Assembly: GCF_000092865.1 (NCBI RefSeq)
Contig: NC_014151.1
Coordinates: 372,001 to 436,000, forward strand
Direction: 5' to 3'
Length of the DNA stretch: 64,000 bases
Source: Cellulomonas flavigena DSM 20109
Lineage (GTDB): Bacteria > Actinomycetota > Actinomycetes > Actinomycetales > Cellulomonadaceae
The notes under the pieces were generated by a model. It did no database searches and was not told the origin of the DNA. It worked only from the letters and a program-made list of their open reading frames with translations. The position numbers and the translations under genes are program-made. Every line of letters begins with the position of its first letter. The first letter of the stretch is position 1. Shown in pieces: positions 5,253 to 20,651 of this stretch.

Positions 5253-6024
5253 TCATGCGGTGCGGACGGGGGCCTGCAGCGTCACCGGGCCCGCGGTGGC
5301 CGTGACGTGCCGGTGCACGCCCGTCGTGCGCAGGCCCCTCTCGGCGAGCGCGGCGTCGAGGGTGATCCACGCGTCCGCGACGCTGCCGGGGGACTGCTCG
5401 AAGGTGACCGAGACCCCCGCTGCGACGGCCGGGACCTCCACGACGCCCAGCGCACCCGCGTCCGCGGTCGCCGCGGTGCCCGCCGTGACGGTGATCGACT
5501 CGTCCGAGGTGCCGTCGTAGAGGCACACGACCTCGGCGTCACGGTCCGCGGGGGACAGGCAGGCCCGCAGCCGGGTGCTCACGTCGCGCACCGCGTCGGG
5601 GATCTCCGTCTCGTCGCGCACCGCGACGCTCACGGCCCGCAGCCGCAGGGCGGGCAGCGGCCCGAGCTCCAGTGTGCTCATCACGGTGCCACTCCCTCGC
5701 TCCAGGGCCGCGAGCCGCGACCGCACCTCCACCAGACGTGCCGACTCCTCGGTGATCGTCCGCTCGAGCTCCTGCGCCCGCTCCCGCAGGAGCTCCACCA
5801 GGCGTCCCTGCGTGAGGCCGGGGCCGAGCAGGTCGACGATCTGCTCGAGCCCGGACCCCACCGCACGCAGCGACGCCACGGCCCGCACCCGTCCCGCCTG
5901 GCTGTCCGCGTAGCGGCGGTACCCGGTGGCGGGGTCGACGGAGGCCGGCTCGATCAGCCCGAGCTGTTCCCAGTGGCGCAGCATCCGCCGGGACACACCC
6001 GTGGAGTGCGCGATCTCTCCGATG
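5253..6024 (-). pseudogene. merR-family regulator, 3' part of gene split by transposon
   Basis: Coding for a MerR activator-type regulator: HTH (GVSRRMLRHWEQLGLIEPA, PATGYRRY), a coiled dimerisation helix (LVELLRERAQELERTITEESARL), and a C-terminal effector domain of about 150 residues of GyrI-like appearance. The reading frame continues into transposon DNA with no good start. The first codons lie at 20,011-20,033. Joining both parts through one copy of the target duplication restores MGDMLSIGEIAHSTGVSRR, a perfect MerR N terminus. A truncated product could start at a GTG near 5,996 but would lack the first HTH helix. The effector is unknown. Confidence 0.9.
6019..6024. repeat. Target-site duplication, left copy (CCGATG)
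   Basis: Six bases CCGATG directly abut the left end of the transposon and recur directly after the right end at 20,011-20,016. Tn5053/Tn7 relatives usually make 5-bp duplications, so one of the six bases may match by chance. Confidence 0.88.
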
Positions 6025-6049
6025 TGTGACTTTCTCCGGTGAGTGGCGG
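6025..6049 (+). repeat. Left terminal inverted repeat of transposon
   Basis: Begins TGTGACTTTCTCCGG and runs to TGGCGG. Matches the inverted right end at 18 of 25 positions. A further TGGCGG-type motif occurs subterminally at the right end (reverse strand near 19,960), consistent with multiple transposase binding sites. Confidence 0.82.
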
Positions 6050-6075
6050 CGGTCTTCAGCCGCTCAGGGGCACGG

Positions 6076-6894
6076 TTAGTTGACTCCGATGACGAGGGTG
6101 CTGGCGGCGGCTTCGACGACGTCGTTGGTGATGGTCTGCAGCTCGTTGATCTTCAGGACGCGTTCGATCTGGGGGAAGAGTCGCTCCAGGAGGCGGAAGT
6201 TGCCGCGGGTGATGCGGCTGATCGCGGCGATGGTCTGGGCGTCGGTGAAGTCGTCGGGGTTGAGGGTCTTGCCCAGGGAGCGCCAGTGGCGTTGGAGGAC
6301 GAAGAGCATCTCGTCGGTGCTCAGGGGCCGGTACTGGTGGGCGAAGCCGACGCGGCTGTAGAACTGGGGGTAGTGGCTGAACTGCTTCTCCAGCCCGGGC
6401 ATGCCGATGAGGATCAGGGCGATCTGGTCGCGGTCGTAGCGGTCCCGTAGGAGCTCGAGCGCGGTGGGGCTCAGGCGTTCGGACTCGTCGACGATGACGA
6501 GCTGGACGTCGTTGGTGGTGCGCCGGGTGCCCCACCGGTCCACGGGGATGCGGCCGGGGACCTCGAGGTGCTGCTGGATGCAGATGCTGGTGCGAGTGAT
6601 GATCCGGTCCAGGTCCTCGCGCAGCAGCCGCGGGGTGGTCAGGACCCCGGGGGTGTACAGGGCGGTGCGGTTCTTGGCCAGCGCGGCGTAGATCTTGGCG
6701 TCGTCATCGCAGCGCGGGCCCCAGTCGGTCAGCAGCTCGTGGGCTTGGTCCCAGTGGGCGTAGCGGCGTGCGGAGACGGTCTTGCCGACCCCGGCCGGCC
6801 CGAAGCACAGCCCGATGGTGCGCCCGCGCCGGACGGAGTCGGCGAACTCGGTGAAGCGGCGGTGCTCCTTGGTGACGGCGAAGCATTCGCTCAC
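6076..6894 (-). CDS. tniB: TniB-like AAA ATPase (transposition regulator)
   Basis: 272 residues, usual TniB/TnsC/MuB size. Such ATPases bind target DNA and activate the DDE transposase. Walker A is GPAGVGKT at residues 32-39, Walker B is VQLVIVDESE at about 130-138, and a sensor-like stretch LILIGMPGLEKQF follows. The C-terminal part (RGNFRLLERLFPQIERV) is the helical lid. GTG start overlaps the stop of the transposase by 4 bp (GTGA), so it is the last gene of the resolvase-transposase-ATPase operon. Its stop is 50 bp from the left end of the element. Confidence 0.9.
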   Translation of the reverse strand: MSECFAVTKEHRRFTEFADSVRRGRTIGLCFGPAGVGKTVSARRYAHWDQAHELLTDWGPRCDDDAKIYAALAKNRTALYTPGVLTTPRLLREDLDRIITRTSICIQQHLEVPGRIPVDRWGTRRTTNDVQLVIVDESERLSPTALELLRDRYDRDQIALILIGMPGLEKQFSHYPQFYSRVGFAHQYRPLSTDEMLFVLQRHWRSLGKTLNPDDFTDAQTIAAISRITRGNFRLLERLFPQIERVLKINELQTITNDVVEAAASTLVIGVN

Positions 6895-8072
6895 CTGAGG
6901 TCCTCCTTGTAGACCTTGAGCCGCGCCACGGTCGGTACGCGCGGCGGCACGGGCCTGGCAGGGGCGTCGGGGGTGTGGGCGGCGACGACGGCGATCCGCT
7001 CGTTGATGCCTCGGCGCAGGGCGCGGCGACGGGCGTTGCGGGCGGCCTGGACGTCCTTGAGGCTGATCTGCTTGGCGTGGTGTTCCTGATCGACGGCGGT
7101 GCACAGGAACTGGTCGTGGTCGAAGACGCGGATCTCGGTGATGTCTCTGGGGTCGTAGCGGATGACCACGGGGCGGCCGACGAAGCCGGCGAGGGTCGGT
7201 GAGACGTAGGGCATGCCTTGGAAGTGGATGCCGTCGCGGCGCACCGTCCTGGATCGGGCGACGGTCAGCAGCAGCCCGTCCAGCGCCTGGAGGCTGTCGG
7301 GAAGGCGTGGCAGCCAGCCGTCGGCGATCCACGCCGACCGCGGCGAGACGCCGAGCTCGCCGTGGGCGCGGTCGTTGTAGTCCAGGACGAACGCCCCGAC
7401 GGCGGCGTCGAGGTCAGCCAAGGACAGGGCTGGCGCGGGCCAGCGCTCCGCGCCGCTGTGGAGGTGTCCGGGCAGGGTGGTGAGCAGCTCGGTGTTGACC
7501 GTGCCGAAGAAGCGCTCGACCTTGCCTCGCCCTTGGCGTCGCGCGACGGCGGAGTGGATCAGGCGGATGTGCAGGTCGACGGCGGTGCGGGCCAGGTGGT
7601 CGCTGGTGAAGTCCGACCCGTGGTCGACGTACAACAGGTCGGGGATGCCGCACATCGGCCACCGGGGGTCGGCCTTGGGCCAGATCGCCTGCCGTAGCGC
7701 CAGGGCGGTGTGCATCGTTGACGGCGCACCGAAGAAGACCGTGTAGCCGCAGATCGCGCGGGCGCAGTCGTCCATCACGACGGTCAGCCACGGCCGGGCC
7801 GGCTTGCCGTCCGTGCCGACGAGCACGATGTCCAGCAAGGTGTGGTCGGCCTGCCACATCGCGTTGGGGCGGTCGGCCGTCCGCCGCAACGCGAGCTCGT
7901 ACTTGTCCCGGTAGGAGCCTGCTCCCTCGAGGGCGAGGGTGACCATGCCGGGGTCCAGGGCGGTGATGATCGACCGGACGACGCCGTAGGACGGGACCGG
8001 CCACGCGGTGCCGGCGCAGACCTTCACCACCGTCCGGTGGATCGCGGCGATCGGTGGGCGGGGCCGGGTCAC
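6891..8072 (-). CDS. tniA: TniA-like DDE transposase, catalytic ORF
   Basis: 393 residues with a retroviral-integrase-type core: Asp76 (WQADHT), Asp150 (YVDHGSDF) and Glu186 (GRGKVERFFG), the last two separated by 35 residues as in D,D(35)E enzymes. A Mu-type C-terminal beta-barrel follows (VRRDGIHFQGMPYVSPTLAG, VVIRYDPRDITEIRVF), then a basic tail. The N-terminal DNA-binding part is not in this frame but in the ORF just upstream, which ends in a GTGA overlap with this GTG start. Relatives I know of carry both parts in one chain, so this is either translational coupling or a frameshift. Confidence 0.85.
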   Translation of the reverse strand: MTRPRPPIAAIHRTVVKVCAGTAWPVPSYGVVRSIITALDPGMVTLALEGAGSYRDKYELALRRTADRPNAMWQADHTLLDIVLVGTDGKPARPWLTVVMDDCARAICGYTVFFGAPSTMHTALALRQAIWPKADPRWPMCGIPDLLYVDHGSDFTSDHLARTAVDLHIRLIHSAVARRQGRGKVERFFGTVNTELLTTLPGHLHSGAERWPAPALSLADLDAAVGAFVLDYNDRAHGELGVSPRSAWIADGWLPRLPDSLQALDGLLLTVARSRTVRRDGIHFQGMPYVSPTLAGFVGRPVVIRYDPRDITEIRVFDHDQFLCTAVDQEHHAKQISLKDVQAARNARRRALRRGINERIAVVAAHTPDAPARPVPPRVPTVARLKVYKEDLR

Positions 8073-8293
8073 CCGAGCCCTTCGATTAGCGCGATGAGGT
8101 CCGCCGGCAGGTGATGCCCGCCCGCGTCCGCCCGCGGCACTCGGCCCAGGGCCGACAGGCCGCCGGCGCGGTAGCGGGCATGCCAGCGTTCCAGCGTGCG
8201 CACTCCCAGGCCGTGGTGACGGGCCAGCGCGGCGAGCGGGACCTGGTCCTCGACATGCAGCCGCAGGATCCGCCACCGCCCGTCCGCGTCCAC
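8069..8293 (-). CDS. HTH N-terminal part of split TniA transposase
   Basis: 74 residues: LHVEDQVPLAALARHHGL then GVRTLERWHARYRAGGLSALG is a classic helix-turn-helix of transposases that bind terminal repeats. It ends LIALIEGLG at a TGA that overlaps the GTG of the catalytic ORF (GTGA). A shift of one base back at this point would produce a continuous chain running into TRPRPPIAAIHR. The start GTG lies 7 bp after the resolvase stop. Whether the break is natural or a mutation cannot be decided from sequence alone. Confidence 0.75.
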   Translation of the reverse strand: MDADGRWRILRLHVEDQVPLAALARHHGLGVRTLERWHARYRAGGLSALGRVPRADAGGHHLPADLIALIEGLG

Positions 8294-8300
8294 GGCCGGC

Positions 8301-8930
8301 CTACACGGCGCTCGTGGCTCGTCGTGACGGGGCCGCTGCGGCGGGCGCGCGGTTCAGGGCCCGGTAGATGGTGGTGCGGGAGACGCCGAGCACCTGCCCG
8401 ATCTGGGCGACGGTCATGTCCTTCTGCTCATATATCCGTCGGGCCGCCCGGACCTGGTCCGCGGACAACGCCGACGGCCGCCCACCGCTGCGGCCCCGAG
8501 CACGAGCGGCCGCCAGGCCGGCGTTGGTGCGCTCTCGGATCAGGTCGCGCTCGAACTCGGCCAGTGCCGCGAAGACGTGAAAGACCAACCGTCCGCCTGG
8601 GGAGGTGGTGTCGATGGTCTCCTGCAACGACCGGAACCCCACGCCGCGGTCGGCCAGGACCTGCAGCTGGTCGATCAGGTGGCGGATCGACCGGCCGAGC
8701 CGGTCCAGCCGCCACACCACCAGGGTGTCCCCCGGGCGCAGCTGGTCCAGCAGCTTGTCCAGCTCCGGCCGGTGCTGCAGCGACCCGGAGCCGGTGTCGA
8801 CGAACACCCGGTAGCACCCGGCCTTGGTCAGCGCATCGACCTGCAGCGACGCGTCCTGATCGGTTGTCGACACGCGCGCGTACCCCAGGAGAGGCCCCAC
8901 GCGTCGACCGTAGCGAAACCCGTCCGACAC
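8301..8930 (-). CDS. Serine resolvase/invertase (TniR-like)
   Basis: 209 residues (199 from a second GTG at 8900). Small serine recombinase: LLGYARVSTTDQDASLQ with the catalytic Ser, then LDRLGRSIRHLIDQL, and AEFERDLIRERTNAGL of the long E helix. The C-terminal HTH is LSADQVRAARRIYEQKD plus VAQIGQVLGVSRTTIYRAL. It resolves cointegrates made during replicative transposition by acting at a res site, which is visible directly upstream (8,905-9,046). First gene of the transposition operon. Confidence 0.92.
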   Translation of the reverse strand: MSDGFRYGRRVGPLLGYARVSTTDQDASLQVDALTKAGCYRVFVDTGSGSLQHRPELDKLLDQLRPGDTLVVWRLDRLGRSIRHLIDQLQVLADRGVGFRSLQETIDTTSPGGRLVFHVFAALAEFERDLIRERTNAGLAAARARGRSGGRPSALSADQVRAARRIYEQKDMTVAQIGQVLGVSRTTIYRALNRAPAAAAPSRRATSAV

Positions 8931-9046
8931 GGGAAGTATCGCGCCGTAGTTTTCGGCACGCAGTTCCGCTACATCAGGCGCCTCGTCGACGACGCGCGCC
9001 GCCCGGCCCTCCGGCGCGTGTAGCGGAATCGTTCGTTTGCGGCACA
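8905..9046. promoter_or_regulatory. Candidate res site of the resolvase
   Basis: Upstream of the resolvase. A 28-bp dyad runs TGTAGCGGAA (9,019-9,028) to GGCACA (9,041-9,046), with the TGT...ACA ends usual for resolvase subsites. A second dyad at about 8,943-8,973 pairs CGTAG with TTCCGCTACA (8,964-8,973), and a third half-site GTAGCGAAA lies near 8,910. TTCCGCTACA and TGTAGCGGAA are exact inverted copies. Confidence 0.6.
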
Positions 9047-9063
9047 GGCTGCCGGTTCAGTCA

Positions 9064-9082
9064 GTGCTGTATAGTTCAGCAC
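9064..9082. promoter_or_regulatory. Operator of cmtR (perfect dyad)
   Basis: GTGCTGTATAGTTCAGCAC is a perfect 6-7-6 inverted repeat that ends one base before the cmtR ATG. No Shine-Dalgarno site fits between, so the transcript is probably leaderless and the operator covers the transcription start. A metal-responsive ArsR/SmtB repressor site is the natural reading. Confidence 0.65.
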
Positions 9083-9442
9083 ATGCTGAGCATTGCTACT
9101 CGCCTGGACGTGATGAACCGGTTGGGCCGGGCAATGGCCGACCCAACACGGTCACGGCTCCTGATGGCGTTGTTGGAGCGGCCCGCCTATCCGGCAGAGC
9201 TGGCACGCGACCTCGGGCTGACGCGCTCGAACGTGTCGAACCATCTGGCTTGCCTGCGCGACTGCGGCATCGTGGTCGCCGAGCCCGAGGGCCGCCAGAC
9301 ACGTTACGAGATCGCCGACCCGCACCTGGCACGGGCGCTCAACGCACTGGTCGAGGTCACCCTCACCGTGAACGAGAACGCTCCCTGCATCGATCCTGCC
9401 TGCCCTGTTCCCGGGTGCGCCAACGCGGAGCCTGACGCGTGA
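9083..9442 (+). CDS. cmtR: CmtR-like Cd(II)/Pb(II)-sensing ArsR/SmtB repressor
   Basis: 119 residues. Closely follows the mycobacterial CmtR layout: ALADPTR-like GRAMADPTRSRLLMALL, the recognition helix LTRSNVSNHLACLRDC with the two metal-binding Cys of the CLxxC pattern, GRQTRYEIADPHLARAL, and a further C-terminal Cys in ENAPC that in CmtR completes the metal site. It represses the cadD gene with which it overlaps by 4 bp (GTGA). Likely leaderless start at the dyad operator. Confidence 0.9.
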   Translation: MLSIATRLDVMNRLGRAMADPTRSRLLMALLERPAYPAELARDLGLTRSNVSNHLACLRDCGIVVAEPEGRQTRYEIADPHLARALNALVEVTLTVNENAPCIDPACPVPGCANAEPDA

Positions 9443-10038
9443 TCGTTTCCTCGGTCCTGCAGGCGATCGGCCTGTTCGTTGCCACCAACATCGACGACAT
9501 CATCGTGCTCTCGCTGTTCTTCGCCCGGGGCGCAGGGCAACGCGGGACGACGGCCCGGATCACCGCAGGCCAGTACCTCGGGTTCGCCGGCATCCTGGGC
9601 ACCGCCGTGCTCGTGTCACTGGGCGCGGGAGCATTCCTTCCTGAAGAAGCCATCCCCTACTTCGGGCTCATCCCCCTGGCCCTAGGCCTGTGGGCCGCAT
9701 GGCGGGCCTGGCGCGGGAGCGACGACGATGACGATGACGCCAAGGTTGAGGGCAAGAACGTCGGCGTCTTGACCGTCGCCGCGGTCACCTTCGCCAACGG
9801 AGGAGACAACATCGGCGTCTACGTCCCGGTCTTCCTCAACGTGGGACCTGTAGCCGTGGTCGCCTACTGTGTCGTCTTCCTCCTGCTCGTCGCGATCCTC
9901 GTCATGCTGGCCAAGTTCATCGCCACGCGCCGACCGATCGCCGAAGTCCTCGAACGCTGGGAACACGTGCTGTTCCCGATCGTTCTGATCGGCCTGGGCA
10001 TCGTCATCCTCGTCAGCGGCGGAGCCTTCGGCCTCTGA
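9439..10038 (+). CDS. cadD: CadD-family cadmium resistance transporter
   Basis: 199 residues, five to six hydrophobic segments. Family signatures are GLFVATNIDDIIVLSLFF near the N terminus and VAAVTFANGGDNIGVYVPVF in the middle, the paired Asn/Asp membrane motifs of CadD. An acidic cytoplasmic loop of Asp residues (SDDDDDDAK, about residues 94-101) separates the halves. Membrane protein giving cadmium tolerance by efflux or sequestration. GTG start overlaps cmtR, so the pair is one Cd-inducible operon. Confidence 0.9.
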   Translation: MIVSSVLQAIGLFVATNIDDIIVLSLFFARGAGQRGTTARITAGQYLGFAGILGTAVLVSLGAGAFLPEEAIPYFGLIPLALGLWAAWRAWRGSDDDDDDAKVEGKNVGVLTVAAVTFANGGDNIGVYVPVFLNVGPVAVVAYCVVFLLLVAILVMLAKFIATRRPIAEVLERWEHVLFPIVLIGLGIVILVSGGAFGL

Positions 10039-10508
10039 CGCCCTGCCCCGGCCCATGACGCATCTCGGTTGAGAGACTGCACGCACGGAGCGAAGAGCTC
10101 CGAGGAGAGGCATGGTGGATAGCCGCGCCGGTGTTGCCATCGCGTGGCCGCGCTGGCAGATCTCGCGGTAGACCCGCGATCACCCCCTGGTTGTCGGCGC
10201 CAGCTGACCCGACCGCCACAGAACACCGACAAGGCCCCGCCACCTGAACGCCAAGACCACAGGCGAGGTCGCGCGAAAGCGACGACGCCAGGAAACGAAG
10301 ACCCCAACGGCACACCTGCGGAGCGCGCGAGGGCGGTCGCTTGAGACGCGCCGGCGGGTGGGCTCACAGAACGCTGTCGATCGTTGCCGTCGGCGGACTG
10401 CTGTCCTCAGACGACGGCGGCGTGATGTTGAGCCGCTAGTCGCGGCGCCCTGGACTGAGCAGCCTGGCATCGATTGCCCAACGGGTTTGCGTTCCCGACG
10501 AGCTCGCT
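10039..10508. other. Long non-coding stretch inside the transposon
   Basis: I see no gene with family features here. A 19-codon ORF begins at about 10,112 after a strong GAGGAGAGG site but encodes nothing recognisable. Base composition and scattered frames suggest decayed sequence or a leader between the cadmium and copper modules. Confidence 0.5.
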
Positions 10509-10525
10509 TTCATCGAGCCTTCATC
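10509..10525 (+). promoter_or_regulatory. TTCATC direct repeat, copy 1
   Basis: TTCATCGAGCCTTCATC: two TTCATC half-sites with an 11-bp period, the geometry of OmpR-family response-regulator boxes. It lies about 100 bp before the SHOCT/DUF2933 pair. Three related sites occur in the transposon. Confidence 0.7.
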
Positions 10526-10609
10526 GGACCTCGACCGCATCTTGGGGGTGCCCGGGGCAGCCTCAGGCCGTGGGCGCCGTCGGCGCCCGGCGCGAGAGGG
10601 AGCGGACCG

Positions 10610-10846
10610 ATGCCGTGGTGCGTGGATCTGGGAGTCGGCGGCTGGCTGGTCCTCGCGTCGAGCCTGGCGGTGCTCGGCATGGCCGTGTGGGCGGTGACGC
10701 GACTGTTTCCCGCTGCACCAGAGCCGGACGCGGTGACGCTGCTCGACGCCCGGCTGGCCGCCGGGCAGATCGATGTGGACACCTACCGCAGGCTTCACGC
10801 CGAGCTCGCCGGACCTGTGCCGGCGCGATCGGAAGGACTGCGATGA
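10610..10846 (+). CDS. Small SHOCT-domain membrane protein
   Basis: 78 residues. One membrane segment (GGWLVLASSLAVLGMAVWAV, residues 9-28), then a short SHOCT domain LLDARLAAGQIDVDTYRRLHAEL near the C terminus. SHOCT motifs occur on the ends of many small membrane proteins and are thought to aid oligomerisation. Start ATG with GAGAGGGAG upstream. Overlaps the next gene by 4 bp (ATGA). Its promoter region carries copy 1 of the TTCATC repeat, which links it to the copper regulon of the element. Confidence 0.7.
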   Translation: MPWCVDLGVGGWLVLASSLAVLGMAVWAVTRLFPAAPEPDAVTLLDARLAAGQIDVDTYRRLHAELAGPVPARSEGLR

Positions 10847-11088
10847 AGAGCCACCTCAAGGGAATGGTCGTCGCTGCTGCGGCGGTGCTGGTCGTGGCGC
10901 TGGCAGCGGGTGTGCGTCCTGGCGCGGCGTTGGCGCCTGCGCTGGCGTGCCCGCTGATGATGATCGCCATGATGGTGTGGATGCACCGCCGCGGCCACAC
11001 CGGGCAGCCCCACCATGGCGCGCACGACGTCACGGCGGACGCGCCCGTGACGTCGCCGCCGCACAGCGCGGCGCCGGGAGCCCGCTGA
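10843..11088 (+). CDS. Small DUF2933-like membrane protein
   Basis: 81 residues. Two hydrophobic stretches (MVVAAAAVLVVALAAGV and ALACPLMMIAMMVWM) followed by a His-rich end HRRGHTGQPHHGAHD. The CPLMM...HRRGH pattern resembles DUF2933 proteins that travel with copper genes. The Cys, Met and His residues could bind Cu(I), but this is inference. Translationally coupled to the SHOCT gene. Convergent with the kinase chimera, with only 2 bp between. Confidence 0.6.
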   Translation: MKSHLKGMVVAAAAVLVVALAAGVRPGAALAPALACPLMMIAMMVWMHRRGHTGQPHHGAHDVTADAPVTSPPHSAAPGAR

Positions 11089-11090
11089 GC

Positions 11091-12044
11091 TCAGCCGGGC
11101 GGCACCGGAAGCGTGACGGTGAACGATGCGCCGGCTCCCGGGCCGTCGCTCGTTGCGGTGATGGTGCCGCCGTGGGCCTCGGTGAGCGCTTTGCAGATCG
11201 CCAGGCCGATGCCCGATCCGCCGTGGGTACGGTCACGCGCGGTATCGGCCCGGTAGAAGCGCTCGAACAGGTGCGGCAGGTGCTCGGGCGCGATGCCGGC
11301 ACCGGTGTCGGACACGTGCAGCGCCACGCGCTGGTAACCGCCGGTCGCACGGAGCGTGATCGTGCCTCCGGCCGGGGTGTGACGCAGTGCGTTGGCGACC
11401 AGGTTGTCCAGGACCTGGCCCATACGCTGGCGGTCGACACGGACGTGTCCCAGCTCGGGGTCGACCTGGACCCGCACGTCGACCCCGGCGGCGGTCGCGC
11501 GCTCCCGCCAGGTGCCGGTGGTCGCTGCAAGCAGTTCGTCTGGCGCGAGCGGTTCGAGCGTGAGTACGAGGTCACCGGCCTCGGCGCGGGTCACCGCGGC
11601 GAGGTCGCGTGCCAGCCGGGTCAGGCGCGCGGACTGGTCGCGCAGCACGGCCATTGTGGGCTCGTCCATCGGTTGCAGGCCGTCTTCCACGGCCTCGAGG
11701 TACCCGGCGATGGTGGCGACGGGGGTGCGGACCTCGTGGGCGACGTCGGCCAGGAGCCGGGCCCGCAGCCGCTCGGCCTCTTGCAGCCGCGCGGCCATGG
11801 CGTTGAACGACTCGGCGAGGTCGTCGAACTCCGCGCCCAGTCCTGCAGCCGGGACGCGGGACACGACGACGTCCGGATCGACCTCGCGCAGCACCCCGAC
11901 GGCCTGCGAACCGTCATGGGTCACGCTGACCTCGAACCCGTCCCGCTCGAGGTATCCGGCCACCAGCCGGGCCAAGGCTTGCTCGTCGTCGACGACGACC
12001 GCGCGCCGCGCTGTGGTCGTCGTGGTGTCTGGGGTGGGGGTCAC
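11091..12044 (-). CDS. Receiver/histidine-kinase chimera (apparent in-frame deletion)
   Basis: 317 residues from GTG 12,044. Residues 15-61 are the first half of a response-regulator receiver (AVVVDDEQALARLVAGYLERDG, ending DPDVVV just where the phospho-acceptor Asp should follow). At residue 62 the sequence changes abruptly to the end of a HAMP domain (FDDLAESFNAMAARL). An intact kinase core follows: His103 in ADVAHEVRTP, DNLVANALRHT (N box), DTGAGIAPEHL, FERFYR and GGSGIGLAICK. The sensor, membrane segments and rest of the regulator are missing. The picture is a deletion between adjacent regulator and kinase genes. Probably cytosolic and uncoupled from its signal. Confidence 0.85.
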   Translation of the reverse strand: MTPTPDTTTTTARRAVVVDDEQALARLVAGYLERDGFEVSVTHDGSQAVGVLREVDPDVVVSRVPAAGLGAEFDDLAESFNAMAARLQEAERLRARLLADVAHEVRTPVATIAGYLEAVEDGLQPMDEPTMAVLRDQSARLTRLARDLAAVTRAEAGDLVLTLEPLAPDELLAATTGTWRERATAAGVDVRVQVDPELGHVRVDRQRMGQVLDNLVANALRHTPAGGTITLRATGGYQRVALHVSDTGAGIAPEHLPHLFERFYRADTARDRTHGGSGIGLAICKALTEAHGGTITATSDGPGAGASFTVTLPVPPG

Positions 12045-12084
12045 CTGGCCATTGTCGGCTGCGGACGGACGCCGGTCGGGGACC

Positions 12085-12474: not shown

Positions 12475-12475
12475 G

Positions 12476-13459: not shown

Positions 13460-14082
13460 CCTCCGGAACCGCCACCCGCCGCCTCGCCGAACGCCAGCAG
13501 GCTCTGCAGGAGGTTCAGGCCGCGCAGGCGGGACAGGCGCGCCGCCGCCAGCGCATCAGCTGGGCCGCGTGGGGCGCCGGTCTGCTGATCGTGGCCACGC
13601 TGATCGCCGCCGCGTTGATCACCTCCCAGCCGACCACGTCCAGCGACGTGCGCGTCGCACCGGACTTCACGCTGCCCGCCTCGGACGGCTCGACCGTCTC
13701 GCTGGCGGACTTCCGCGGTGGACCGGTCGTCCTGTACTTCAACGAGGGCGCCGGCTGCGACTCATGCCTGCTGCAGATGGCCGAGATCGAGAAGGATCCA
13801 GCGTTCGCCGAGACCGGCATCACCGTGCTGCCGATCGTGATGAACACCGCCGAGCAGATCAACACCGATCGCCAACGCCTCGGCGTCCAGGCACCGTTCC
13901 TGCTTGACGACGGCACCGTCTCCGCCGCCTACGACACCCTCGGCAAGGGCATGCACGAAGGCCTCCCGGGGCACGGGTTCGTCCTGGTCGACGCCGACGG
14001 CAACCAGCTGTGGCACGGCAACTACCCGTCCATGTGGCTTGCCCCCGCCGACCTGCTCAAGGAGGTCACCAGCCGACTCTGA
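13456..14082 (+). CDS. TlpA/redoxin-like membrane-anchored thiol protein
   Basis: 208 residues. A basic, Gln-rich cytoplasmic start, one membrane anchor (AAWGAGLLIVATLIAAALIT, about residues 36-55), then an extracytoplasmic AhpC/TSA-Redoxin fold: APDFTLPASDGSTVSLADFRGGPVVLYF, active site GCDSCLLQM (CxxC), and HGFVLVDADGNQLWHG near the end. It would receive electrons from the CcdA-like protein with which its gene overlaps (ATGA). Likely keeps copper-site Cys reduced outside the membrane. Confidence 0.85.
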   Translation: MTSGTATRRLAERQQALQEVQAAQAGQARRRQRISWAAWGAGLLIVATLIAAALITSQPTTSSDVRVAPDFTLPASDGSTVSLADFRGGPVVLYFNEGAGCDSCLLQMAEIEKDPAFAETGITVLPIVMNTAEQINTDRQRLGVQAPFLLDDGTVSAAYDTLGKGMHEGLPGHGFVLVDADGNQLWHGNYPSMWLAPADLLKEVTSRL

Positions 14083-14134
14083 CCATCACCGTTTGACCTG
14101 ACGCGCGCGTCACCGACCTATGAAGGAGAGCCCG

Positions 14135-14266
14135 ATGGGCTGCTGCCAGGACACCCCTACCTCGACGACCACGACCCAGAGCACGGTCACCACGACGAGC
14201 AACAGCTGCTGCGGCGGCGGCGCTCAGGGCGCGGACACCTGCTGCACGACCAGCACCTCGGCCTGA
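14135..14266 (+). CDS. 43-residue Cys-pair, Thr/Ser-rich peptide (metallothionein-like candidate)
   Basis: Too short for routine gene calling. ATG preceded by AAGGAG at good spacing. The peptide has three vicinal Cys pairs: MGCCQDTPTS at the start, NSCCGGG in the middle and DTCCTTSTSA at the end, joined by Thr/Ser-rich linkers (TTTTQSTVTTTS). No hydrophobic segment. Six Cys in 43 residues between copper genes suggest a Cu(I)-binding peptide, functionally like but not visibly homologous to mycobacterial MymT. It lies between the TlpA-like and DUF305 genes in the same direction. Confidence 0.7.
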   Translation: MGCCQDTPTSTTTTQSTVTTTSNSCCGGGAQGADTCCTTSTSA

Positions 14267-14299
14267 TCCCCAACACCGATCCTGGGAAGGAACCACCCC

Positions 14300-14926
14300 T
14301 TGACGAGCACCACGCGCCGGCGCCTCGCCGCGACGACAGCAGCACTCGCCCTGGCGGCCACCCTGACCGCCTGCTCCACCGGCGACGAACCGACGCCCGA
14401 ACCCCCCGCGGCGCAGGAGTCCTCGAGCAGCGAGGACGCCGAGGCGGCGACTGAGCACAACGCCGCCGACGTGGAGTTCGCGCAGATGATGATCGTCCAC
14501 CACCAGGGAGCGCTTGAGATGGCTGAGCTCGCGGTCGAGCGGGCCTCCACCGACGAGGTGCGCGCACTGGCCGAGCGAATCGCCGCAGCGCAGGGCCCGG
14601 AGATCGAGCTCATGTCCGGCTGGCTGGAGACCTGGGACGAGGAGCTTCCCGCTGAGGCTGAGCACGGCGGCATGGACCACGGCGGGATGGAGATGGACGG
14701 CATGGACCAGGAGGAGGCGATGTCCACCCTGGCCGAGTTTGAAGGGGTCGCGTTCGACCGGAGGTTCCTCGAGCTCATGGTCGCCCACCACCGCGGCGCC
14801 GTCGAGATGGCCCAGGCCCAGATCGGCGAGGGCGCAGACCCCGACGCCCTGGCACTCGCCCGGACGATCAGGGACGACCAGAACATAGAGATCACCGAGA
14901 TGGAGAACCTGCTGCGGTCCCTCTGA
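14300..14926 (+). CDS. DUF305 lipoprotein
   Basis: 208 residues from a TTG start with GGGAAGGA upstream. Lipoprotein signal ending in LTAC (lipid-modified Cys about residue 25). The DUF305 domain is a helical bundle with two matching halves: DVEFAQMMIVHHQGALEMAELAVER and FDRRFLELMVAHHRGAVEMAQAQI, each with the HHxGA motif. A Met/His-rich insert (HGGMDHGGMEMDGMDQ) joins them. DUF305 proteins are common in copper loci and such Met/His runs typically bind copper. Acts on the outer face of the membrane. Confidence 0.88.
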   Translation: MTSTTRRRLAATTAALALAATLTACSTGDEPTPEPPAAQESSSSEDAEAATEHNAADVEFAQMMIVHHQGALEMAELAVERASTDEVRALAERIAAAQGPEIELMSGWLETWDEELPAEAEHGGMDHGGMEMDGMDQEEAMSTLAEFEGVAFDRRFLELMVAHHRGAVEMAQAQIGEGADPDALALARTIRDDQNIEITEMENLLRSL

Positions 14927-14946
14927 GCAGCCCGCAGCACGACCGG

Positions 14947-14981
14947 CAGGAGGCCACCCCGCACGAAAAGGTGGCCTCCTG
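14947..14981. terminator. Hairpin after the DUF305 gene
   Basis: CAGGAGGCCACC (14,947-14,958) and GGTGGCCTCCTG (14,970-14,981) form a perfect 12-bp stem with an 11-base loop. No T-run follows, which is common for actinobacterial terminators. It closes the redox-copper operon. Confidence 0.75.
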
Positions 14982-15057
14982 TCGCGTGCGTCTGCCACCG
15001 GCGCTGCGGCGAAGCGCTAGGTGCGGACGTACCGTCGCCCGGTGCCGAACTCCCCGT

Positions 15058-15435
15058 TTGACAAGGAAGAACCTGCCCGGCCTCACCGCGTGCAGTCTGT
15101 GTGCCGGAGAGACCCTGGGCGAAGCTGACACCGCCCCGGGTGGCCAGCTGCAGCGCCTGAGGCACCTGGCCGACTCCGGCGTGGCTCGCCTGACGACCGT
15201 CGACTGCCTCGACGCGTGCGATCGCGGCGACGTCGTGGTCGCTCGTCCGTCCGGTGCATGCCGCCGCACCGGCGCACGACCGGTGTGGTTCGAACGCCTC
15301 GCCGGGGATGAAGTCACCGGCGAGCTCGCGCGCTGGCTCCGGTGCGGCGGTCCGGGCGTCGCGCGACTGCCCGACCGACTCGTCGGCAACGTCATCCAGC
15401 GCTCTGACCCCGTGCCCGCCGGCCCTGCGGCGTAG
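15058..15435 (+). CDS. Thioredoxin-like [2Fe-2S] ferredoxin-type protein (start uncertain)
   Basis: About 125 residues from a TTG; no Shine-Dalgarno site fits well and no ATG or GTG is in frame nearby. Pattern of the thioredoxin-like ferredoxin family: an N-terminal Cys pair (ACSLCAGE), RLRHLADSGVARLTTVDCLDACDRGDVVVARPS, where DCLDAC holds the second Cys pair, then RRTGARPVWFERL and AGDEVTGELARWLRCGGPG. Related small proteins occur near metal and cobalamin genes. Bases TTGACA overlapping the proposed start could instead be a promoter -35, so the true start may be different. Confidence 0.55.
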   Translation: MTRKNLPGLTACSLCAGETLGEADTAPGGQLQRLRHLADSGVARLTTVDCLDACDRGDVVVARPSGACRRTGARPVWFERLAGDEVTGELARWLRCGGPGVARLPDRLVGNVIQRSDPVPAGPAA

Positions 15436-15494
15436 CCGTCGGATTCACGGCCTGACGCGCGTTCGCCCTTGCGCGGCCGTCCGCCGGAGAGACC

Positions 15495-15511
15495 CTCATC
15501 GAACCTTCATG
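15495..15511 (+). promoter_or_regulatory. TTCATC direct repeat, copy 3
   Basis: CTCATCGAACCTTCATG, 11-bp period with one changed base in each half. It lies about 115 bp before the DUF326 gene. Confidence 0.65.
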
Positions 15512-15625
15512 GCGGCGCCGTCCCTCTCACCGCGCGAACACGCGGCCCTGTCCATAGCGTCGAAAGGGTCCCCGCGGCGCACGAGCGATCGATGTGCCGC
15601 ACGATCCGCACATCAGGAGGCCGTC

Positions 15626-16027
15626 GTGAAGACCACGCAGATGCTCGACACCTACCCCGCGACCATCAACCTCGACCGCCAGCTGCTGGCTCGCGTCATC
15701 GAGTCCTTGGTCGCCTGCTCGCAGGCGTGTACCGCGTGCGCGGACGCGTGTCTGAGTGAGGAGATGGTCGCCGACCTGCGCAAGTGCATCCGGTCCAACC
15801 TCGACTGCGCCGACAGCTGCGCGGCCACGGCGCGGATCCTGTCCCGCCACACCGGCTATGACGCCAACATCACCCGGGCTCACCTCGAGGCCTGCATCGC
15901 CGCGTGCCGGGCCTGCGGCGACGAGTGCGAGCAGCACGCGGGCATGCACGAGCACTGCCGCATCTGCGCCGAGGCGTGCCGGGACTGCGAGACCGCCTGC
16001 GCCGAGCTCCTCGCGGCCATCCGCTGA
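15626..16027 (+). CDS. DUF326 four-helix-bundle copper-binding (Csp-like) protein
   Basis: 133 residues, GTG start with CAGGAGG upstream. About 17 Cys placed along four helices in CxxxC and CxxCxxxC spacing (VACSQACTACADACLSEE, KCIRSNLDCADSCAAT, ACIAACRACGDECEQHAGMHEHCRICAEACRDCETAC). Such bundles store many Cu(I) ions on inward-facing Cys. No signal peptide, so cytosolic. Its position between TTCATC copy 3 and a DUF305 gene makes it part of the copper regulon of the element. Confidence 0.9.
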   Translation: MKTTQMLDTYPATINLDRQLLARVIESLVACSQACTACADACLSEEMVADLRKCIRSNLDCADSCAATARILSRHTGYDANITRAHLEACIAACRACGDECEQHAGMHEHCRICAEACRDCETACAELLAAIR

Positions 16028-16060
16028 ATCCCACCGGTAGCAGCGACAAGGAGACAGCCG

Positions 16061-16705
16061 ATGTCCATGCACCATGAGCACGACCGCGACCCGGCGGAGA
16101 GCCGGCACGACAGCGACGGCGCCCGGCACGGCGGCGGTGAGCACCACGGCGGCGGGCAGGGCCATCAGATGAAGGGCATGTACCTGCGGTTCGCCGCCAT
16201 GATCCTCACCGCCATGGCCGTCATGTACTTCGTCATGTTCGTCGGCTCCTGGGAGCTGGACCACGTCCGGTTCAGCCAGAGCCGGGTCTTCATGACGGTC
16301 ACCATGGGCGGCACGATGGGGCTGATCATGCTCGCCTGGATGCTGAACATGTACAGGAACGCCAAGGCCAACCTCGCCGTGGTCGCCATCAGCGTGCTGC
16401 TCCTCACCGGCGGTGTCATCCTCGATCGCAGCCAGGCCACGGTCGGCGACACCGCATTCATGCGCGCGATGATCCCGCACCACTCCCTGGCTATCACCCG
16501 CTCCGAACGGGCGCAGATCGACGACGTGCGGGTGTGCGAGCTCGCCGTCGAGATCATCGAGGCTCAGCAGCGGGAGATCGCCGAGATGGACTGGCTCATC
16601 GAGGACATCGAGCGCAAGGGCATCGCAGCAACGGCGGCCGAGGCCGACGCGCGCCCCGTACCGGACTTCGAGGGCACCGCGCTGCGCTCGTGCCCGACCC
16701 CCTGA
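16061..16705 (+). CDS. Membrane DUF305 protein with His-rich N terminus
   Basis: 214 residues. A His/Gly-rich cytoplasmic N-terminus (MHHEHDRD, HGGGEHHGGGQGH), then three membrane segments (FAAMILTAMAVMYFVMFVG, VTMGGTMGLIMLAWMLNMY, LAVVAISVLLLTGGVIL). The C-terminal DUF305-like part has DTAFMRAMIPHHSLAITRSERA and EIIEAQQREIAEMDWLIEDIE. Metal binding at the His cluster is inferred. It follows the DUF326 gene by 33 bp in the same operon. Confidence 0.85.
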   Translation: MSMHHEHDRDPAESRHDSDGARHGGGEHHGGGQGHQMKGMYLRFAAMILTAMAVMYFVMFVGSWELDHVRFSQSRVFMTVTMGGTMGLIMLAWMLNMYRNAKANLAVVAISVLLLTGGVILDRSQATVGDTAFMRAMIPHHSLAITRSERAQIDDVRVCELAVEIIEAQQREIAEMDWLIEDIERKGIAATAAEADARPVPDFEGTALRSCPTP

Positions 16706-16776
16706 CCTGGCCCGCTCGGCGTCGAGGTGCCCCCGAGCCGGGAATACCGGCCATGAGCACGCCGTTGGCTGCTCAC

Positions 16777-16793
16777 ATACCCCCTGGGGGTAT
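16777..16793. promoter_or_regulatory. CsoR-type operator upstream of copB
   Basis: ATACCCCCTGGGGGTAT, an almost perfect palindrome of the type bound by CsoR/CstR/FrmR-family repressors. It is 43 bp before the copB start. A near-identical box (22,368-22,383) lies outside the transposon. No CsoR-family gene is on the element. Confidence 0.8.
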
Positions 16794-16835
16794 TTTGCGC
16801 AGATGACGGTGGAGCACGGGTCGAGGAGAAGAGCC

Positions 16836-19118
16836 ATGAGCAACGCGCACCAGGGCCACGACGTGCACGGCGAACGACGCAGCAGCGCGAGCCAGCGGCA
16901 CGAGCTGTCCGTCGAGGACACTGATCCGCTGGCTCACGACCGCCACGGTGGGCACGACGCCGGCCAGATGGAGCACGAGGGCCACCACATGCCCGCGCAT
17001 GTGGATGGGCACGACGCCGAGCACCGGCCCTCCGCGAGCCACCATGGCGAGCACATGGGCGCCGAGGGTGACCACGGCGGGCACGGGGCACACGGCGGTG
17101 GTCACGGTGACCACGTCGCCCTGTTCCGGCGCCTGTTCTGGATCAACCTCGCGCTCGCCGTGCCGACGGTCCTGCTCAGCGGGATGTTCGCCGACCTGCT
17201 CGGCTATGCCCTCCCCGACGTCCCGGGGCTCACCTGGGTCGCGCCGGCCCTCGGCACCGTGATCTACCTGTGGGGCGGACGGCCGTTCCTCACCGGAGCG
17301 GTCGCTGAGTTCCGGGCCCGCAAGCCGGGGATGATGCTGCTCATCGGGATGGCGATCACCGTGGCGTTCGTCGCCTCCTGGGGCGCGACCCTCGGGGTGC
17401 TCTCGCACGAGCTGGACTTCTGGTGGGAGCTGGCCCTGCTGGTCGTGATCATGCTGCTCGGCCACTGGCTGGAGATGCGGTCCCTGGCGCAGACCTCCTC
17501 CGCTCTGGACTCCCTGGCGGCGCTGCTGCCGGACGAGGCGGAGAAGGTCGACGGCGACTCCGTCGTCACGGTCGCTCCGTCCTCGCTCGCCCTGGGGGAC
17601 GTCGTCATCGTCCGCCCGGGCGGCCGGGTGCCGGCCGACGGGCAGGTCGTCGAGGGCGCTGCCGACGTCGACGAGTCGATGATCACGGGCGAGTCGCGGC
17701 CGGTGTTCCGGACCGTCGGCGACCAGGTCGTCGCGGGAACCGTCTCGACCGACAGCGCCCTGCGCGTGAGGGTCGACGCCGTCGGTGACTCGACCGTGCT
17801 GGCCGGGATCCGACGACTGGTCGCCCAGGCGCAGTCGTCCACGACGCGTGCGCAGCTGCTGGCCGACCGCGCCGCCGGGTGGCTGTTCTGGTTCGCCCTG
17901 ATCGCCGCCGTCATCACGGTCGCGATCTGGAGCGCCGTCGGGACACCGGACTTCGCGATCATCCGCGCCATCACGGTGCTCGTCATCGCCTGCCCGCACG
18001 CTCTCGGGCTCGCCATCCCGCTGGTGGTGTCGATCTCCACCGAACGCGCTGCCTGGGGTGGCGTGCTGGTCAAGGACCGTGCCGCACTCGAGCGGATGCG
18101 CGTGGTCGACACCGTCCTGTTCGACAAGACCGGGACGCTCACCAAGGGCGAGCCCGCCGTGCACGATGTCGCGACGACCGGGATCGGTGACGACGAGCTC
18201 CTTGCGCTGGCCGCCGCCGCGGAAGCCGACAGCGAGCACCCGCTGGCACGTGCGATCACCGCCGCAGCACACCATCGAGGGCTCACGGTGCCGCGCGCCG
18301 AGGACTTCCAGGCCTCGACGGCTGTCGGAGTCTCCGTCACCGTGGACGGACGCTGGGTCGCCGTCGGCGGCCCGAACCTCCTGGCCGAGCAGGGGCTCGA
18401 TCCTCTGCCGGTGACCCAGCCCTGGTCCGACCGCGGACAGATCGTCCTGCACGTCGTGGTCGACGGCCGCGTGGCCGGAGCGCTAGGGCTCGCCGACGAG
18501 GTACGTCAGGAGTCCCGCGAGGCGGTCGACGCCCTTCACGCCCTCGGCATCCGCGTAATGATGATCACCGGTGACGCCGAGCCGGTGGCCAAGGCCGTGG
18601 GGACGGAACTCGGCATCGATCAGGTCTTCGCGGGCGTCCGCCCGGAGGACAAGAGCAGCACGGTGGCCTCCCTGCAGGGTGAGGGGCGGACCGTGGCGAT
18701 GGTGGGTGACGGCGTCAACGACGCGCCCGCCCTCGCGCAGGCCGACGTCGGCGTCGCCATCGGTGCCGGCACGGACGTGGCCATCGCCTCGGCCGGGGTC
18801 ATCCTCGCCTCCGACGACCCCCGGTCTGTCCTGTCCGTCATCCAGCTCTCCCGTGAGGGCTACCGGAAGATGAAGCAGAACCTGTGGTGGGCCGCCGGCT
18901 ACAACATCGCCGCCGTGCCCCTCGCCGCCGGAGTCCTCGCGCCGGTGGGGTTCGTCCTGCCGATGGAGATCGGCGCGATCCTCATGTCCCTGTCCACGGT
19001 CGTCGTGGCCGCGAACGCCCAGCTCCTGCGGCGTCTTGACCTGAGCCCACAGGCCTTGACAGCCGCAGCACACGGGGCCCAGCGCGTCGGACCGCGGACA
19101 GCGGTGCCAGCTGCCTGA
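16836..19118 (+). CDS. copB: Copper-translocating P1B-type ATPase, CopB class
   Basis: 760 residues from the ATG that follows GAGGAGAAG (an ATG at 16,803 is weaker). Long His/Met-rich N terminus, no CxxC heavy-metal domains. Transport site is CPH (LVIACPHALGLAIP, middle of the protein), which marks the CopB class rather than CPC enzymes. Other landmarks: TGES (actuator), DKTGTLTKGE (phosphorylated Asp), SEHPLARAI (nucleotide-binding HP motif), MVGDGVNDAPALAQADVG. About eight membrane helices. Pumps copper out of the cytosol. CsoR-type operator directly upstream. Confidence 0.95.
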   Translation: MSNAHQGHDVHGERRSSASQRHELSVEDTDPLAHDRHGGHDAGQMEHEGHHMPAHVDGHDAEHRPSASHHGEHMGAEGDHGGHGAHGGGHGDHVALFRRLFWINLALAVPTVLLSGMFADLLGYALPDVPGLTWVAPALGTVIYLWGGRPFLTGAVAEFRARKPGMMLLIGMAITVAFVASWGATLGVLSHELDFWWELALLVVIMLLGHWLEMRSLAQTSSALDSLAALLPDEAEKVDGDSVVTVAPSSLALGDVVIVRPGGRVPADGQVVEGAADVDESMITGESRPVFRTVGDQVVAGTVSTDSALRVRVDAVGDSTVLAGIRRLVAQAQSSTTRAQLLADRAAGWLFWFALIAAVITVAIWSAVGTPDFAIIRAITVLVIACPHALGLAIPLVVSISTERAAWGGVLVKDRAALERMRVVDTVLFDKTGTLTKGEPAVHDVATTGIGDDELLALAAAAEADSEHPLARAITAAAHHRGLTVPRAEDFQASTAVGVSVTVDGRWVAVGGPNLLAEQGLDPLPVTQPWSDRGQIVLHVVVDGRVAGALGLADEVRQESREAVDALHALGIRVMMITGDAEPVAKAVGTELGIDQVFAGVRPEDKSSTVASLQGEGRTVAMVGDGVNDAPALAQADVGVAIGAGTDVAIASAGVILASDDPRSVLSVIQLSREGYRKMKQNLWWAAGYNIAAVPLAAGVLAPVGFVLPMEIGAILMSLSTVVVAANAQLLRRLDLSPQALTAAAHGAQRVGPRTAVPAA

Positions 19119-19130
19119 GCAGACGACCCC

Positions 19131-19147
19131 TTCATCGAATCTTCATC
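19131..19147 (+). promoter_or_regulatory. TTCATC direct repeat, copy 4
   Basis: TTCATCGAATCTTCATC: two exact TTCATC half-sites at an 11-bp period, 56 bp before cueP. The best conserved copy with copy 1. Confidence 0.7.
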
Positions 19148-19202
19148 GCCGACGGGCCTTCGGTCGGCGGAGCCGCGCACGACGGTGAGCGAGGATCTTC
19201 AC

Positions 19203-19751
19203 ATGCGTTCTCGACTCCGCCTCGCCGCTGTCGTCGTTGCTGCCACCGCTGTGCTCGCCGGCTGCTCCGCCACCTCGGATGACGACGTCCTCGCCGACCT
19301 CGGGCTCGACGGCCTGACCGGTCAGGAGATCGTCACGCGACTCGACACCTCGACGGACAGCCGGCCGCTGAACTTCACGGCCTCCGTGCGCGAGGACGAG
19401 GTCCTCGTCGGCGACGGGACCGCCGAGGTCGCCGTGCCCCTCGACGAGGGCGAGTTCTACGTCTCGATCGCGCCGTACATCGAGACGACGCACGAGTGCT
19501 ACTTCCACAGCCTCGCGACCTGCCAGGGCGAGTTGGTCGACGAACCGGTGGAGGTCACGATCACCGACGCCGACGGTGTTGTCCTCGTCGAGGAGAGCGC
19601 CACGACCTACTCCAACGGGTTCGTCGGCTACTGGCTCCCTGAAGACGTCGAGGGAACGATCGAGATCACTCAGGGCGACCTGAGCGGCAACGTTCCGTTC
19701 AGCACGACCGAGGGCAGCCCGACCTGTGTGACCACCCTCCAACTCACCTGA
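19203..19751 (+). CDS. cueP: CueP-family copper-binding lipoprotein
   Basis: 182 residues, ATG with GAGCGAGGA upstream. Lipoprotein signal ending VLAGC. CueP landmarks: GLDGLTGQEIVTRLD, EFYVSIAPYIETTHECYFHSLATCQGEL (the CxFHxxxxC copper motif), VTITDADG, GFVGYWLPEDVEGTIEI. CueP holds copper outside the membrane and in enterics supplies it to superoxide dismutase. Last gene of the element and preceded by its own TTCATC site. Confidence 0.92.
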   Translation: MRSRLRLAAVVVAATAVLAGCSATSDDDVLADLGLDGLTGQEIVTRLDTSTDSRPLNFTASVREDEVLVGDGTAEVAVPLDEGEFYVSIAPYIETTHECYFHSLATCQGELVDEPVEVTITDADGVVLVEESATTYSNGFVGYWLPEDVEGTIEITQGDLSGNVPFSTTEGSPTCVTTLQLT

Positions 19752-19985
19752 TCGACACGGCCGCTCCGAGCGGGCTCGGCCTCCGGTCGCCGTCGACGCA
19801 CAGAAGCCGGGGGTGTTGCTCAGCTCCGCGGCATTGGGCCGAGGTTGGCCGCAGCAACCACAGGTCCGAGTCGCGGGCGACAGTGCACCGCTGCGGTGCG
19901 GTCATGACCCCGCGCTGTCGAAGAATCACCCCAGCTCCCGGACGGAACGCCCGGCCGGGCACCGCCACTTAGCCTCGGCAGAAGC

Positions 19986-20010
19986 CCGCCATCTTCCGCT
20001 GGAAGTCACA
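19986..20010 (-). repeat. Right terminal inverted repeat of transposon
   Basis: Read inward on the minus strand it begins TGTGACTTCCAGCGG and reaches TGGCGG, as the left end does. The 234 bases between cueP and this repeat hold no gene, only a subterminal GGCGG motif. Confidence 0.82.
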
Positions 20011-20033
20011 CCGATGCTCAACATGTCGCCCAT
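20011..20033 (-). pseudogene. 5' end of the merR gene split by the transposon
   Basis: Contains the start codon of the interrupted merR (ATG at 20,033 preceded by GAGGGGG; a second ATG at 20,024). It encodes MGDMLSI and half of the next Gly codon, then meets the target duplication CCGATG (20,011-20,016). The remainder is at 5,253-6,018. The transcript from this promoter now reads into the right end of the element. Confidence 0.88.
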
Positions 20034-20628: not shown

Positions 20629-20651
20629 GGGAGTCTCCTAGTGGTTCCGGT

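Follow-up and report, generated by a model that had tools for sequence, protein, structure and literature searches.

Tn552 of Staphylococcus, with p271, p480 and bin, and the Tn5053/Tn402 family are the closest described systems to the transposon considered here. According to one report, Tn552 has inverted repeats of about 120 bp and direct repeats of 6 bp, with 10 bp in two plasmid groups; res regions are named there as hot spots of insertion, and the p480 transposase of the Tn552 in pMW2-like plasmids is reported to be frameshifted (PMC3276174). For Tn5053/Tn402, a second source describes a DDE transposase, an AAA ATPase, a resolvase, res-site hunting and nesting in carriers (PMC7765201). 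We analysed a 64-kb stretch (hereafter the window; bases 372001-436000 of the single-contig genome of 4,123,179 bp) of Cellulomonas flavigena type strain 134/DSM 20109, a soil isolate according to its description (PMC3035266). In this window, a metal-resistance element with cadmium and copper genes splits a merR gene. We consider it very probable that this element is a nested Tn552-like transposon, in which two transposons moved as one, and that it belongs to a group with a target stagger of 6-9 bp and with exchange of arms at the core of the res site.

With Tn552 the locus shares a p480-type transposase, a p271-type ATPase and an adjacent resolvase in the same gene order, as well as the 6-bp duplication found in the window. 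Insertion into res regions was seen in 10 of 36 rows of the group, the window's own copy not being among them. It differs from Tn552 in its 25-bp ends with a loosely matching extension, in the duplications of 6-9 bp, in the metal cargo and in a nested second right end. The likeness to Tn5053/Tn402 consists of the DDE transposase, the AAA ATPase, the resolvase, the res-region insertion seen in relatives and the nesting; the differences are given below together with the evidence on family assignment.

Boundaries of the Element

The element comprises 13,986 bp (6025-20010) between a left copy (6019-6024) and a right copy (20011-20016) of the target duplication CCGATG, and the initial annotation, which had been made from the letters alone, was correct on this point to the base. 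Its left terminal repeat L (6025-6049, forward strand) reads TGTGACTTTCTCCGG....TGGCGG, and the outer right terminal repeat R2 lies at 19986-20010 on the reverse strand. The two outer 25-bp ends were identical at 18 of 25 positions with TGGCGG in common, again as annotated, and TGTGACTT was present exactly once per strand in the window, at the two element ends. Beyond the 25-bp ends only a weak gapped alignment was obtained, with two 24-bp units at R2 and at an inner right repeat, R1, that is described below.

The annotation had also proposed a search for other copies with the same ends, and both ends were indeed found at the same base in plasmids with other flanks. A plasmid of Cellulosimicrobium cellulans carries window 6025-9039 at 99.3% identity, with the same first base and other DNA before it, and a plasmid of Cellulomonas sp. 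C5510 carries much of the right-hand part at 98-99.8%, with the same last base and other DNA after it. With these two plasmids, both ends are confirmed independently of the duplication. Furthermore, L was found with other flanks in the collected loci L005, L090, L092 and L157, and R2 in C5510 and the genome G042. When the own genome was searched for a second copy of the transposition module (6025-8930), only the module itself and three matches of 34-49 bases were returned. A repeat search of the region gave only low-identity families and arms, which were taken as chance. A tRNA gene as the target was rejected, the window containing no tRNA.

Evidence for a Nested Structure

The outer boundaries of the annotated single element thus stood, but its description as one element delimited by its ends did not, since a further right end is present inside it at 10261. 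Window 6025-10261 corresponds to a whole 4,234-bp element of Janibacter massiliensis at 99.2% identity, which is flanked there by a 9-bp duplication; because the Janibacter element ends at this base, 10261 represents a right end that is now internal. The repeat concerned, R1 (10237-10261, reverse strand), forms the right-hand boundary of the 4.2-kb cadmium transposon, and the same end with a 9-bp duplication was found in L092. The cadmium cargo consists of cmtR (9083-9442, forward strand), a Cd/Pb-sensing regulator of the ArsR family (NCBIfam CmtR, 176 bits against a cut-off of 150), and a cadD-like cadmium resistance transporter gene (9439-10038, forward strand; Pfam Cad, E 1.2e-29, below the NCBIfam CadD cut-off).

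The DNA directly to the right of R1 (10262-10336) has a counterpart ahead of the copper cluster in four genomes (G512, G510, G513 and G190; loci L183, L184, L185 and L187) and is cut by R1 at its first base. In these genomes, 58-59 of 74 aligned bases were identical to it, a match equalled in none of 200 shuffles, and the four share 12 further bases leftward past the R1 cut point. Of the 148 bases that separate R1 from the copper match, this homology covers 75. In G512, the copper genes lie in an element of 18,510 bp with a 9-bp duplication, a right end like R2 at 24 of 25 positions, and its own transposase (49%) and ATPase (44%). From this nested structure it follows that the cadmium transposon supplied the left end, and the copper transposon the right end, with which the unit in merR moved.

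We also considered that the copper segment was joined by homologous recombination or by an insertion sequence (IS), with R2 as a coincidence and the 6-bp duplication arising from a later move of the whole block by any route. IS3 elements do stand beside this cargo in C5510, and the group shows frequent exchange at res. However, the homology flanking the copper genes begins at the very base after R1, and R2 serves as an end next to different DNA in both C5510 and G042 and recurs at 24 of 25 positions beside a 9-bp duplication in G512, so that we regard such a joining as improbable.

The genome G042 presents the same modules nested the other way. There, R2 is followed directly by window 8999-10261, 33 bp from the res core (L182 15913-17176, reverse-complement coordinates); here it was the copper element that inserted, and the res of the cadmium element that received it. 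For this G042 copper element, no left end was found in about 25 kb leftward. As a separate observation, cmtR-cadD is inverted beside the copper cluster in L184 and L187, as a resolvase-mediated inversion between res copies would give.

Transposition Genes and Relationship to Tn552

Three genes on the reverse strand form the transposition module: a serine resolvase of 199 amino acids (8301-8900; Pfam Resolvase, E 6e-46), a tniA-like DDE transposase (6891-8293) whose HTH, rve and Mu-transpos_C domains are distributed here over two reading frames, and a tniB-like AAA ATPase of 272 amino acids (6076-6894; Pfam AAA_22, E 2.1e-19), which is likely the counterpart of Tn552 p271. They stand in the order resolvase-transposase-ATPase, with the resolvase adjacent. 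A TniA/TniB/resolvase transposon with metal cargo, as initially annotated, was borne out, whereas its placing among Tn5053/Tn7 relatives had to be given up. For the ATPase, 760 plasmid records gave a match, 390 being from Staphylococcus, and among the best 60 of these rows it was 38-42% identical to Staphylococcus and Enterococcus plasmid ATPases over nearly the full length; no enterobacterial genus was among the ten commonest genera of the 760 records, 60 further genera being outside that listing. For the transposase, the intact protein of L005 was used as the query and the best 60 of at least 5,000 rows were compared. Among the matches listed, Staphylococcus and Enterococcus types reached 39-44% (about 336-365 bits), and rows from Klebsiella, E. 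coli and Acinetobacter only 25-34% (at most 105 bits), these values coming from a similarity search. The best rows for the p480-type transposase and the p271-type ATPase were thus 38-44% identical over 88-100% of the length.

In this comparison, we take the Staphylococcus and Enterococcus types to be Tn552 and the enterobacterial and Acinetobacter types to be Tn402/Tn7, an assumption drawn from gene order, protein sizes, host and some record names; a few of the enterobacterial and Acinetobacter transposase rows carry the names tniA or TnsB. A plasmid of Staphylococcus equorum holds a resolvase, a transposase (482 amino acids) and an ATPase (270 amino acids) in the same order beside cadmium genes. 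Its record does not bear the name Tn552, and we presume a correspondence from the protein sizes, which fit p480 and p271.

A single transposon of the Tn5053/Tn402 family (TniA, TniB, TniQ and TniR) carrying two metal operons would have the same kinds of genes and the same targeting of res regions that is seen in relatives, and the ends begin with TGT, like those of Tn7/Tn5053 relatives. Yet the nearest relatives are Tn552 types, the duplications are 6-9 bp (41 insertions, with one doubtful case of 5 bp) and not 5 bp, and the right end at 10261, internal here, forms the outer boundary of an element elsewhere. No TniQ match was obtained among the 16 element open reading frames scanned with hidden Markov models; the own genome gave none either, and since the control genomes were likewise silent, the absence of TniQ from the genome is not established. 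We consider a single Tn5053/Tn402 transposon very unlikely, and the filing with Tn5053/Tn7 was rejected on the nearest relatives and the duplication length. Tn7-like elements and type V-K CRISPR-associated transposons show a likeness in that the intact L005 transposase matches ShTnsB (E 4.4e-43). They differ in that no TnsA, TnsD/TniQ or Cas family was matched among the 16 open reading frames scanned with Pfam (part of them also with NCBIfam), and in that the ATPase reached ShTnsC only at E 0.05.

Judged by its sequence, the element is a Tn552-like variant and not Tn552 itself, a wording chosen because inverted repeats of about 120 bp were not found. Matches to its ATPase occur in 50 of 396 genomes of the order, fragments included, and in 14 of 394 genomes of the wider class, nine of them only in part.

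Variable Length of the Target Duplication

Copies were collected from plasmids, genomes and 79 loci. A left end was located in 96 of the 103 ATPase rows and a candidate right end in 64; the candidate with the longest duplication was taken as the right end, up to 12 bp being allowed. Genomes that had been fetched twice were removed by their identical left flanks before the duplications were counted, leaving 59 distinct left flanks, 36 rows of which had a duplication of at least 6 bp, one of 5 bp (L157) and 22 of at most 3 bp. A further set of 20 fetched loci contained 20 rows with both ends, nine of them with at least 6 bp and five of these new. The 36 rows less one (L081 being counted double), the five further rows and G512 give 41 distinct insertions, with L157 left out. 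Duplications of 6 bp were found in 7, of 7 bp in 9, of 8 bp in 9 and of 9 bp in 16 of them, and none was longer.

Differences in length were also seen between elements that are nearly identical over their whole extent. Three 6,702-bp elements with 99.9% identity are flanked by duplications of 7, 7 and 9 bp, and two 8,126-bp elements with 99.6% identity by 8 and 9 bp. Similarly, duplications of 6, 6 and 9 bp flank elements of 4,160-4,170 bp (98.5-98.8% identical), and duplications of 9, 9, 8 and 9 bp flank elements of 5,754-5,760 bp (99.1-99.9% identical). Because such near-identical elements differ in duplication length, the stagger varies within a lineage, and the reaction itself seems to have this property. 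Transposases of the Tn7, Tn552 and retroviral integrase kind usually have a fixed stagger, and a variable duplication length in near-identical elements is unusual for them.

The variation between 6 and 9 bp might be an artefact of wrong end positions or of the longest-match rule, by which the right ends were in fact selected. Against this, a cross-locus control, in which the twice-fetched genomes were kept, gave a duplication of at least 6 bp in only 20 of 9,005 pairings of left and right flanks. In addition, elements of 98.5-99.9% identity with the same ends differ in duplication length in four groups, and none of the duplications reached 10 bp although up to 12 bp would have been accepted. 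An artefact of this kind therefore has little probability, and we keep to a stagger that floats between 6 and 9 bp.

Insertion and Probable Exchange at the res Site

The res region lies between the resolvase gene and the cargo (8901-9082), and the 24 bases at 9021-9044, with the core TT at 9032-9033, are its putative site I. Of 36 loci whose resolvase is at least 70% identical, 32 have this 24-base site with the core TT ahead of the resolvase gene (L168 being a weak match). It was unrecognisable in loci with resolvases 37-57% identical, and the result on exchange is limited to the close group for this reason. The half of the site on the transposase side is conserved, and the half on the cargo side is variable.

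In a gapped comparison, 41 locus pairs reached 95% identity or more on the transposase side; these pairs, like the 32 loci, still include at least one genome twice (L084/L128). Homology over 100 nt on the cargo side was lacking in 22 of the 41 pairs, and in 21 of these 22 the identity stopped 3-7 bp after the first core base, inside the half-site. The pair L005/L157, for example, is 99.9% identical over 3,016 bp up to the core and then has no detectable homology in the next 300 bp. Because homology stops at this place, cargo appears to have been exchanged between elements at the res core. The shuffling of transposon modules at res by resolvase is a known idea, reportedly put forward by Kholodii in 2001 for mercury transposons of the Tn3 and Tn5053 types; here, comparison reveals it in a Tn552-like group whose members are mostly Micrococcales. 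For actinobacterial Tn552-like elements, neither duplications varying between 6 and 9 bp nor an exchange of cargo at the res core were found described in the open-access literature searched, subscription papers being outside its scope.

The res region is also a target of insertion. With a panel of seven resolvases, 10 of the 36 rows with a duplication (L081 counted twice) were located 43-99 bp upstream of another resolvase gene, compared with none of 720 positions picked at random within these loci. The end nearer to the external resolvase was the left one in 6 and the right one in 4 of the 10 rows, which is a further difference from Tn5053/Tn402. In C5510, a mercury transposon of 5,494 bp (L006 3507-9000) with a transposase of another subfamily is present in the res of the cadmium-copper element, where it abuts window position 8991, 41 bp from the core. 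A 99.9% identical copy of this mercury transposon in L213, from which its left end was recognised, has a 7-bp duplication.

Proposed Route of Assembly

The relatives suggest an order of two steps for the element in merR. In the first, as comparison shows, the 4.2-kb cadmium transposon (left end at 6025, ATPase, transposase, resolvase, res, cmtR-cadD and R1 at 10261) entered a second transposon, one of the same broad group with R2 as its right end, at a point shortly before the copper genes. In the second, as the duplication shows, L and the distal R2 were used together, and all 13,986 bp entered merR with duplication of 6 bp. At some time, the tniA frame and about 890 bp of the copper two-component regulator genes were lost, in either order. 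By analogy with the Tn552/Tn7-type family, the DDE transposase and the AAA ATPase would pair the TGTGAC...TGGCGG ends and join them to a staggered target cut, and the resolvase would resolve the cointegrate at res. Recombination at the res core would, from where homology stops, exchange whole right arms, that is cargo together with right end.

In a wider form, to which we incline only slightly, the Tn552-like elements of Micrococcales would be a two-part platform. Its constant arm would consist of the left end, transposase, ATPase, resolvase and half of res, and its exchangeable right arm of the other half of res, the cargo and the right end. The resolvase would swap right arms at the res core, even across transposase lineages, helped by mutual insertion into res, and the stagger would float between 6 and 9 bp; the window would show one such product, whose left and right ends would stem from different lineages. 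If true, this would give a base-resolved route for the building of actinobacterial metal-resistance islands, by mutual res insertion and then cargo exchange at one dinucleotide. For annotation, it would mean that such islands should be delimited by their outer ends and duplications, and not by the nearest end.

Several observations weigh against these readings. With regard to the nesting, the last 73 bases before 10410 have no counterpart in any of the four genomes with upstream homology, 10262-10336 has no match in G042, and the left side of the cadmium insertion, and with it any duplication of its own, is no longer visible here. R2-type ends also occur with a window-type transposase (L079), and the right end is only likely to come from a different lineage. 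With regard to the stagger, 22 of the 59 left flanks with a right-end candidate show no duplication above 3 bp, L157 shows 5 bp, and 11 of the 20 rows with both ends in the further set lack a duplication of at least 6 bp. The choice of the right end by the longest duplication favours finding one, at a control rate of 20 in 9,005. The mercury element in the res of C5510 also has no duplication. In the two sets of rows, missing duplications may be due to truncation at contig or 10-kb limits, to rearrangement at res or to a wrong right end. With regard to the exchange, 19 of the 41 pairs are homologous across the core for at least 100 nt on the cargo side, identity between L079 and L095 continues 67 bp beyond the core, and the 22 exchange pairs are not independent and perhaps represent about five events. 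Finally, the break in the tniA frame could be an assembly error.

State and Age of This Copy

Residues 1-74 and approximately 75-467 of tniA are in different frames in this copy, and the gene was in one frame without stops in all 11 relatives examined; a programmed frameshift as the norm in tniA was rejected on the same 11 relatives. Because tniA is out of frame in the assembly, this copy can probably not move by itself, provided that the frame break is real. The insertion had initially been called recent. In agreement with a recent event, neither the duplication nor either half of merR is damaged, and where the cargo is common to this copy and the plasmid copy the two are 98-99.8% identical; on the other hand, the tniA frame is lost and about 890 bp are missing.

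The Split merR Gene and Its Neighbours

The body of the split merR gene is at 5253-6024 (reverse strand; MerR_1, E 9.3e-8), and its start codon and first codons are right of the element at 20011-20033 on the same strand (ATG at 20031-20033), where a MerR-type promoter-like stretch was recognised by eye upstream of the start. The merR body matched 133 of the 148 genomes searched, the own genome included. The eight closest relatives, with 50-70% identity, were fetched, seven from the same genus and one from the same family. The gene was uninterrupted in all eight. Their N termini, of which MGDMWSIGEIAHSTGVSRRML and MDDMVSIGELAHSTGVSRRML are examples, resemble MGDMLSIGEIAHSTGVSRR, the N terminus that had been deduced for the rejoined gene. 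The annotated split of merR after its first codons was thereby upheld, with both halves intact. An uninterrupted merR-arr locus, for which a search of genomes had been proposed, was found only with regard to merR itself. In the approximately 1 kb viewed downstream, arr was beside merR in none of the eight, and merR-arr is for this reason not a conserved unit. Unlike the res-region insertions of some relatives, the insertion in merR has no resolvase gene next to it.

In the window, an arr-type rifampin ADP-ribosyltransferase gene (4760-5188) is located directly downstream of the split merR. Just right of the merR start, window 20199-22358 contains a CsoR-type repressor beside a fusion of pyridine nucleotide-disulfide reductase and rhodanese.

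Genes of the Copper Module

The leftmost gene of the copper module (11091-12035, reverse strand) is one open frame that joins the start of a response regulator, recognised by eye, to the last part of a histidine kinase (domains HisKA and HATPase_c in 11091-11744). At the regulator-kinase junction (11862-11865), five genomes (G042, G510, G512, G513 and G190) hold 889 bp more between the matched ends, and these ends share 4 bp; a deletion of about 890 bp, its ends overlapping by 4 bp, thus fused the regulator start to the kinase end. One open reading frame scanned between 10262 and 11091 matched no family, and an IS remnant is conceivable there.

The remaining genes are on the forward strand. 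A glutaredoxin-like protein (12178-12474; Pfam Glrx-like, E 1.4e-4, below cut-off) is followed by a membrane protein that is CcdA/DsbD-like by eye (12476-13459; no Pfam match, a weak NCBIfam match only) and by an AhpC/TSA-type redoxin (13456-14082). Profile matches further identified two DUF305 proteins (14300-14926 and 16061-16705) and, between them, a four-helix copper-binding protein (DUF326; 15626-16027) with the same annotation in C5510. The module is completed by a copper-type P-type ATPase (16803-19118; TIGR01511, 565 bits against a cut-off of 397) and by CueP, a periplasmic-type copper-binding protein (19185-19751; Pfam CueP, E 9.8e-58). In C5510, an IS3 element (L006 10106-11456) stands in place of window 10096-14763, as if by an IS-linked deletion. 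A copy of the kinase-redoxin part (window 11862-14914) with 72% similarity is present in the same genome at G000:C1:4056788-4059840.

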